Part shown: piece after piece, positions 25,218 through 26,875 of the stretch
Layout: each line of letters begins with the position of its first letter
How positions within the stretch are numbered: position 1 is the stretch's first letter
Assembly (NCBI GenBank): GCA_030041455.1
Contig: JASHNV010000144.1
Location: forward strand, 1-33,114
DNA from: Spirochaetia bacterium
GTDB lineage: Bacteria; Spirochaetota; Spirochaetia; DAHUYW01
Length of the DNA stretch: 33,114 nucleotides
Reading direction: 5' to 3'
The notes under the pieces: generated by a model
Told to the model about the DNA's origin: nothing
Database searches by the model: none
Seen by the model: the letters and a program-made list of their open reading frames with translations, nothing else
Translations under genes and position numbers: made by a program

Positions 25218-25381
25218 GGTCTCTCCCCGCGCCTTGGATCGAGGCGCGTCGCGGACGAATCCGCTTCCTACGAGTATGCCCCAGGGAGAGCGCGGGGGCA
25301 AGCGCGCTTTCGGAAGGCCGCGAACTCGGATAGGATGGCTTCGCAGGCCCGAGGCTTCTCAGGATCGGCGAAGGAGGTCGC

Positions 25382-26110
25382 ATGGTTCCCTATCTGTTCG
25401 ATCCGGACGTGATCGACGAGTGCGCGATGGCGTGTCTCGGCCTTCCGAAGCCGCAGATGTTCGACCGCTTCGCCTCGGAGGCCGACAGACGCTACCCCGG
25501 CCTCATCGACGACAACCAACCGTGGATCTACAGCATCGCGGGCGGCGCGATGATCCAGATGAAGCTCTACTTCGCCTCCCTCCACGAGTACGTCATGATC
25601 TGGGGAACGCCGATCGGCTCCGAGGGCCACTCGGGACGCCACCACGTCGCCTTCTGGGATACGGTCATCGACGGCGAGGCCTGGTACTACGCGGAGGGCC
25701 AGTTCGAGAAACGCGTCTACCGACCGGGAGCCCGCATCTACGTCGGCAAGGGCCAGGCCTGCGGCATGAGCTTCACCGACGGGGTCTGGGCCGTGGAGTA
25801 CGCTCGAGGTCCCCTGACGCGAAGCCTTCCGTTCGGGCTCGCCGACGAGCTCGTGAGCGCGCGCGATTTCGTCGCCGCGAAGCAGACGCTCTCGATCTAC
25901 GCGACCCTCATCGGCCGCCACTGGTCGAGCGAAGCCAACCGAGCCTATCCCCTCCTCGTACCGCTCAAGAGGCTCCTCGGCGCGATCATGCGATCAGTCG
26001 GGACCAGGATCACGAAACGGCTCATGCCTCCGCCGCCCAGGGAGCTTCCGAGGCGCTCGGAGCCCGAGGGCGACGGACGGATACATGGCCCGCGTCCCGG
26101 CGCCCGATAG
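25382..26110 (+). CDS. ERG2 / sigma-1 receptor family protein (bacterial C8-sterol-isomerase homologue)
   Basis: This 242-residue protein is clearly related to eukaryotic ERG2 (sterol C8-C7 isomerase) and the sigma-1 receptor. Shared blocks are YLFDPDV (4-10), AGGAM (53-57), ASLHEYVMIWGT (65-76), GSEGHSGRHH (79-88), DTVIDG (93-98), YRPGARI (113-119), WAVEYARG (136-143) and LPFGLADELVSARDF (149-163). The two acidic residues that bind the ligand amine in sigma-1 (Asp126, Glu172) correspond to Asp93 and Glu139, with the same 46-residue spacing. The N-terminal membrane helix of the eukaryotic proteins is missing, while the C-terminal amphipathic helices seem present. About 60 extra residues follow. 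AAGGAGG precedes the ATG. The last 117 bases overlap the convergent SDR gene. The reaction in this organism is unknown. Confidence 0.85.
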   Translation: MVPYLFDPDVIDECAMACLGLPKPQMFDRFASEADRRYPGLIDDNQPWIYSIAGGAMIQMKLYFASLHEYVMIWGTPIGSEGHSGRHHVAFWDTVIDGEAWYYAEGQFEKRVYRPGARIYVGKGQACGMSFTDGVWAVEYARGPLTRSLPFGLADELVSARDFVAAKQTLSIYATLIGRHWSSEANRAYPLLVPLKRLLGAIMRSVGTRITKRLMPPPPRELPRRSEPEGDGRIHGPRPGAR

Positions 26111-26875
26111 CGCGATCCCGGCTCGCCGCGGAAGAAGCGCGGCGAGCCGGGAGGCGAGCCTGTTCGCCCGGCCGGGGACGATCTCGGGGCCGCGGCCGAG
26201 GGCGCCGAGCGTCTGACGGACCGCGCTCTCGCAGCCCATCACCGGCAGCGCAAGCCATCCCGGCCGGCGCGGGCTTCCGCTCCTGAAGGTCGGCGTCTCG
26301 GTCAAGCCCGCGCAGCAGGCGAGTACGTCGACCCCCGAAGGACGAAGCTCGTCCCAGAGGCCTTCGGCGAGCACCCGCACGTAGGCCTTCGAGGCGGCGT
26401 AGTGGCTCACGAGCGCGGTGCCCCGAAATCCCGCCATCGACGAGACGAGGATGATGCCGCCTCTGCCGCGAGCCTGCATCCGAGCGCCGAACGCGAGGGA
26501 GAGCAGCGCCGGAGCGCGGCAGTTGAGGTCGATCAGCCGCTCGTGGACGCTCGGGGCCTCGCGCAGGTAGGGGCCGATGAGGGAGAGCGCGCCGTTGCAG
26601 ACGAGGAGACCGACGTCGAGCCGCTCGGTCTCCTCGACGAGCGCGCCCAAGCCGCGCGGATCCGCGAGATCGAGCGACAGCGGAACCGTCTCGACGGCAA
26701 AGCGCGACGCGATCTCCGAGGCGAGGGCGGTAAGAGGCTCCGTTCGCCTCGCGACGAGCACGAGGCTGAGCCCGCGTCCGGCGAGCTGGCGGGCGAACTC
26801 CGCGCCGAGACCGTCGGAGCCGCCGGCGACCACCGCCCACGGGCCGTAGCGCGCGTGAAAATCCGCATCCTTCAT
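25994..26875 (-). CDS. Short-chain dehydrogenase/reductase
   Basis: This 293-residue NAD(P)-dependent oxidoreductase has the nucleotide loop as GGSDGLG (18-24) after the opening RYGPWAVV, NGAL at 94-97 in place of NNAG, the catalytic Ser in LVSSMAGF, and YAASK with Tyr159 and Lys163. The CAGLTETPTF segment follows. The N-terminus resembles the branch that includes eukaryotic 3-ketoacyl-CoA/17-beta-hydroxysteroid reductases, but many bacterial SDRs share it, so no substrate is claimed. GGAGGAG lies just upstream of ATG 26875; the longer frame reaching 27019 lacks homology. The 3' end overlaps the convergent ERG2-like gene by 117 bases, and the last 25-30 residues may be a non-conserved extension. 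Confidence 0.85.
   Translation of the reverse strand: MKDADFHARYGPWAVVAGGSDGLGAEFARQLAGRGLSLVLVARRTEPLTALASEIASRFAVETVPLSLDLADPRGLGALVEETERLDVGLLVCNGALSLIGPYLREAPSVHERLIDLNCRAPALLSLAFGARMQARGRGGIILVSSMAGFRGTALVSHYAASKAYVRVLAEGLWDELRPSGVDVLACCAGLTETPTFRSGSPRRPGWLALPVMGCESAVRQTLGALGRGPEIVPGRANRLASRLAALLPRRAGIALSGAGTRAMYPSVALGLRAPRKLPGRRRHEPFRDPGPD

Follow-up and report, generated by a model that had tools for sequence, protein, structure and literature searches.

An ERG2/sigma-1-receptor homologue from a spirochaete belongs to a bacterial subfamily paired with SDR genes in three phyla

The window analyzed here, the whole 33,114-nucleotide stretch of contig JASHNV010000144.1 from a Spirochaetia bacterium (assembly GCA_030041455.1), encodes a protein of the ERG2/sigma-1-receptor family whose gene runs tail to tail into that of a short-chain dehydrogenase (SDR). 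An ERG2–SDR pair recurs in every close relative found, over three phyla, which suggests that the pair remodels externally acquired steroid-like molecules. Bacterial PF04622 proteins are already known; the new element is a distinct SDR-linked subfamily spread over Spirochaetota, Myxococcota and Chloroflexota. The features that define the locus are as follows.

25372–25378, plus strand: Shine-Dalgarno-like AGGAGGT, three bases 5′ of the ATG of the ERG2 gene (direct reading)
25382–26110, plus strand: ERG2/sigma-1-receptor family protein (PF04622), 242 amino acids, without N-terminal membrane helix (profile, phmmer, predicted structure)
25994–26875, minus strand: convergent SDR gene (PF00106), likely partner of the ERG2 gene, which it overlaps tail to tail by 117 bases

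Family membership, fold and selection

An earlier note on this DNA had read the gene as a bacterial ERG2/sigma-1-receptor homologue, an assignment borne out by both profile and fold. The PF04622 profile (ERG2_Sigma1R) matched the 242-residue product of the ATG-initiated open reading frame with an E value of 3.3e-43 and 148 bits (curated cut-off, 21), aligning protein residues 4–177 to profile positions 22–202 of 210, and phmmer paired the protein with the human sigma-1 receptor (5hk1) at an E value of 2.4e-30. An NCBIfam search returned no model for it, and a plasmid collection gave no match. An AlphaFold2 model built with 40 bacterial homologues as input (mean pLDDT 92.7, pTM 0.86) contains the cupin-like barrel with C-terminal helices that is a trait of the PF04622 family. 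In a comparison against PDB structures, the top 42 matches of this model were all sigma-1 receptor, with cupins coming next, and the model superposed on the human receptor chain 5hk1_A at 1.1 Å over 174 columns. Neither outcome named in the earlier note as refuting, a lack of a significant PF04622 match or of the barrel in the model, was thus obtained.

A second species of the same genus (G001, locus L005) carries a copy that is 87% identical in the aligned part. Comparison of the two genes yielded a dN of 0.118 and a dS of 0.894, the resulting dN/dS of 0.13 indicating purifying selection; given this conserved second copy, the window reading frame is neither a chance one nor a pseudogene. The gene upstream of ERG2 encodes a histidine kinase in the second species and an aldolase in the window. 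In the assembly of the former, contigs C150 and C169 have ~55 bases in common, at the end of L108 and the start of L005, located inside the ERG2 gene, and are probably neighbors because of this shared stretch.

The receptor-type acidic pair and the missing N-terminal helix

Three further features lie within the ERG2 gene.

25658–25660, plus strand: D93 codon; the residue aligns with D126 of the sigma-1 receptor
25796–25798, plus strand: E139 codon; the residue aligns with E172 of the sigma-1 receptor and is invariant in 40 aligned bacterial proteins
25949–26023, plus strand: predicted extra C-terminal helix (model), residues 190–214, beyond the end of the shorter, ~185-residue bacterial ERG2 proteins

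The alignment agreed with the earlier claim that Asp93 and Glu139 correspond to Asp126 and Glu172 of the sigma-1 receptor, with a spacing of 46 residues in both proteins. Each of the 46 grouped bacterial rows in our residue table has glutamate at receptor position 172. Aspartate at position 126 is found in all window-type proteins (the clade described below), in their sister group from Chloroflexota and likewise in 19 of the 19 other bacterial proteins tabulated, as against 12 yeast-like myxobacterial proteins with phenylalanine at 126 and aspartate at 124. Yeast ERG2 shares this latter arrangement. The acidic pair thus comes in two arrangements, and the window protein has that of the receptor; at the position of receptor I124 it carries a phenylalanine (F91), as do 12 of 12 window-type proteins.

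The N-terminal membrane helix was rightly described as absent: the highest 19-residue mean hydropathy is 1.09, leaving no membrane-helix-like stretch, the family sequence begins with FDPDV after only five residues, and the open frame, which measures 258 codons between its flanking stops, holds no in-frame start upstream of the ATG at 25382. Judging from the model, the extra helix at residues 190–214 may attach the protein to membranes.

The sigma-1 receptor (SIGMAR1; 5hk1, 7w2b) is 36–37% identical to the window protein and shares with it the fold, the D126/E172 pair and residues H116, R119, Y103 and F184. It differs in possessing the N-terminal membrane helix that the window protein lacks, whereas the latter has the extra C-terminal helix, is bacterial and lies beside an SDR gene. 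Several pocket residues have also changed from receptor to window protein (V84 to S51, N85 to I52, H154 to V121 and W164 to F131). With yeast ERG2, a C-8 sterol isomerase, the window protein shares the family profile, the invariant glutamate at 172 and ~30% identity; the two part ways at the other acidic position, where Asp 124/Phe 126 of ERG2 and of the 12 yeast-like myxobacterial proteins stand against F91/D93. Myxococcota PF04622 proteins encoded near sterol genes belong to the same family at 34–43% identity, and the shorter ones among them likewise have no membrane helix. Human EBP catalyzes the same reaction as ERG2, substitutes for it in yeast and has an unrelated five-helix membrane fold (PMC6549186).

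A window-type clade across three phyla

The earlier note described the family as best known from the eukaryotic endoplasmic reticulum. A bacterial gene of this kind is not unusual: PF04622 carriers made up 34 of 379 sampled Myxococcota genomes, six of 350 Chloroflexota and four of 393 Spirochaetota. C-8 isomerases have already been named in bacterial sterol pathways (PMC10202945, PMC13277303); no paper devoted to a bacterial sigma-1 receptor turned up in the literature collection searched. Among Myxococcota, a full cyclase match (E < 1e-20) was present in 28 of the 34 carriers as compared to 10 of 40 sampled non-carriers (Fisher p = 8e-7, computed over related genomes that are not independent), which ties the bacterial family as a whole to triterpenes.

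Within the family, the window protein falls in a clade of 12, referred to here as window-type, with support of 100/99 in the tree without long branches and 98/97 before their removal. This clade comprises the two species of the window genus, six Myxococcota loci (L007, L008 and four Anaeromyxobacteraceae), L006 (labeled Deltaproteobacteria) and three Dehalococcoidia, and its sister is a group of three Chloroflexota proteins. A single spirochaete clade was rejected (AU p = 1.8e-6), which implies repeated acquisition of these genes within the spirochaetes.

This scattered origin and the rarity of the gene in the phylum, together with a bin contamination of 4.3%, would fit a gene gained by horizontal transfer and now of little use, or a contig assigned to the wrong bin. 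We nevertheless regard either as very unlikely. The second species has the gene with the same SDR neighbor, and the purifying selection described above largely refutes little present use already; as to misbinning, AdhE on the same contig is 62–67% identical to copies in spirochaete genomes.

An SDR gene accompanies ERG2 at all window-type loci

The adjacent SDR, absent from the earlier note, is the most informative neighbor of the ERG2 gene. ERG2 genes and their neighbors were located by profile search of all open reading frames plus tblastn. By tblastn, 12 of 12 window-type loci have an SDR-superfamily gene no farther than 450 bp from ERG2, and mostly within 100 bp; several being near-identical, these loci represent about five independent lineages. 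The same test placed an SDR gene that close at two of 33 more distant ERG2 loci, with the proviso that its queries were drawn from window-type loci and could miss distant SDRs. Eight of the 12 loci share the same classical SDR (38–62% identical to that of the window). Its gene converges on ERG2 in Spirochaetota and Myxococcota; in Dehalococcoidia (Chloroflexota) it precedes ERG2 on the same strand. The four Anaeromyxobacteraceae loci have an extended SDR instead, which in three flanks ERG2 on both sides. An extended SDR also adjoins ERG2 at three of four loci of the Chloroflexota sister group, the fourth contig being short; two members of that group also have a gene for an F420H2-dependent reductase next to ERG2, and in one the reductase is fused to it. 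A partner retained despite changing order and outer neighbors is the usual mark of joint function. The yeast-like myxobacterial clade is found next to genes for cyclase or squalene epoxidase/synthase, and the Myxococcota family members near sterol genes, unlike the window type, have no constant SDR neighbor.

Among solved structures, the window SDR is closest to 5fyd/5gt9, a 7beta-hydroxysteroid dehydrogenase. Searched against NCBIfam, the SDR, a member of a huge family, matched no model at equivalog cut-off; mycolate reductase ranked first and 7betaHSDH second, both far below cut-off. On sequence similarity, these partner matches lean towards steroid-like substrates without proving them. For a 3Beta_HSD neighbor in the sister species, the OleD score (206 bits; cut-off, 580) exceeded those of the sterol models, and a search of the window genome for its ortholog returned nothing close, the best candidate being 32% identical.

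The overlap of the SDR and ERG2 genes (25994–26110) measures 117 bases in the window and ~25 in the sister species; the window SDR tail may have been extended by a frameshift or a lost stop. With respect to fusions, a Chloroflexota open reading frame (L083:982–2148 / L090) encodes an ERG2 domain and an F420H2-dependent quinone reductase domain (PF04075) in one chain, and the PF04075 reductase is a separate ERG2 neighbor in L092 and L094. Among the long ERG2 reading frames, a genuine second domain occurs only in L083: apparent fusions in the G+C-rich L007, L044, L047, L048, L057 and L063 are most likely start-codon over-extensions, and the four that were scanned (L044, L047, L048, L063) contain no other Pfam domain.

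Most window-type genomes lack squalene synthase and a full cyclase

The earlier note had left a choice between modification of a sterol or hopanoid-like lipid and binding of another ligand. Searches of the window genome (95% complete) and its same-genus relative matched neither squalene synthase (PF00494, for which controls matched in seven of 14 genomes) nor the squalene/oxidosqualene cyclase family (PF13243). Squalene synthase and a full cyclase are jointly missing from eight of the 11 window-type genomes tested, namely the two of the window genus, three Dehalococcoidia and three Anaeromyxobacter, with weak partial cyclase matches in two of these last six. By gene content, de novo synthesis of sterols or hopanoids in these eight is unlikely, and a steroid-like substrate would therefore probably be acquired. 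A sterol or hopanoid made by the host itself was accordingly rejected as an unlikely substrate, given the missing synthase and cyclase, and the evidence leans towards a steroid-like compound taken from outside.

An incomplete assembly could in principle have hidden a complete sterol or hopanoid pathway of which the gene is part: the window genome falls short of full completeness, and the three remaining window-type genomes (G098–G100) have both cyclase and squalene synthase. We consider this most improbable, as the eight genomes without either gene come from three phyla and include both of the window's genus, and loss of the same two contigs in all of them has a small chance.

A sterol reductase partner was also sought in the window genome and rejected, PF01222 giving only sub-cut-off matches to its C-terminal part; with that profile and the 3Beta_HSD copy as the objects of the search, no sterol-specific gene was found there. 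Elsewhere, ERG2 lies beside an ERG4/ERG24 sterol reductase (PF01222) at L066, L104, L105 and L106, and near a cyclase plus a squalene epoxidase/synthase reading frame at L074, the epoxidase/synthase frame also occurring at L071 and L075. That of L074 (2819–6247) encodes 1143 residues combining squalene epoxidase (PF08491) and squalene synthase (PF00494) in one chain. Another spirochaete (G203; L066) has two ERG4/ERG24 reductases, no squalene synthase and no full cyclase, a further hint of outside sterol use. Spirochaete G257 has a full cyclase match (1.4e-58) and no match to squalene synthase.

A putative ring-double-bond isomerase acting with the SDR

The reading we favor, with a confidence a little short of even, is that of a soluble or peripheral ring-double-bond isomerase acting together with the neighboring SDR on a steroid-like molecule acquired from outside. 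The ligand, steroid-like or possibly another triterpenoid and bearing a double bond in a ring, would be taken up and enter the barrel, where E139 and D93 could serve as an acid/base pair that protonates and deprotonates neighboring ring carbons so that the double bond moves; the adjacent SDR would then oxidize or reduce a hydroxyl or keto group of the same molecule. The sterol genes beside other bacterial members support this combination. Counting against its steroid part are the lack of a sterol-specific gene in the window genome, the sub-cut-off SDR matches and the higher rank of mycolate reductase over 7betaHSDH. Against isomerization speak the same acidic pair in the sigma-1 receptor, known as a receptor rather than an isomerase, and F91 in place of a yeast-like aspartate at the I124 position.

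The same chemistry, again with the SDR, might instead act on a non-steroid substrate such as a polycyclic or isoprenoid lipid, a quinone-like compound or a long-chain beta-keto lipid. A window genome without triterpene synthesis would suit this alternative, as would the mycolate reductase match of the SDR, the closeness of its same-genus neighbor to OleD, and the pairing or fusion of ERG2 with an F420H2-dependent reductase in the sister group. Yet these NCBIfam scores are far below cut-offs, several other bacterial members are flanked by sterol genes and, to our knowledge, every characterized ERG2/sigma-1 family member has sterols or steroid-like amines as substrates or ligands; we judge such a substrate unlikely, if worth serious attention.

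The sigma-1 receptor, with the same acidic pair, is known as a receptor and not as an isomerase, and the window protein could similarly be a non-enzymatic ligand-binding sensor or chaperone. The receptor does join the window side, albeit weakly (70/83), when long branches are left out of the tree. The constant pairing with oxidoreductase genes, however, fits a pathway better, and the D126-type pair also occurs in bacterial members encoded beside ERG4/ERG24 reductases (L104, L105), rendering a receptor-like role rather improbable.

Relation to the eukaryotic proteins

The sigma-1 receptor is a drug target whose natural ligand and original job are still debated. A helix-free bacterial relative that has the receptor's acidic pair and a constant enzyme partner should be easy to express and would allow the idea that the fold is basically a steroid-modifying enzyme to be tested directly. 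An acquired steroid-like substrate, the reading preferred above, points to the handling of such molecules by bacteria incapable of their synthesis. This is relevant to the alteration of sterols in sediments and to their interpretation as molecular fossils.

The weak placement of the receptor is accompanied, in the same tree, by that of yeast ERG2 inside the yeast-like myxobacterial clade, and one eukaryotic clade was disfavored (AU p = 0.01); eukaryotes are represented by three long-branched sequences, so that the topology is a lead only. Fungal ERG2 could conceivably descend from the yeast-like Myxococcota group with its cyclase link, and the animal sigma-1 receptor from near the SDR-linked window-type group, two different bacterial subfamilies; we hold such an origin to be quite doubtful on these phylogenies. 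Were it true, the window-type group would be an extant bacterial cousin of the receptor, one that could reveal the job of the receptor's ancestor. In one genome, G099, a yeast-like ERG2 gene coexists with a window-type one, which argues for different jobs of the two.
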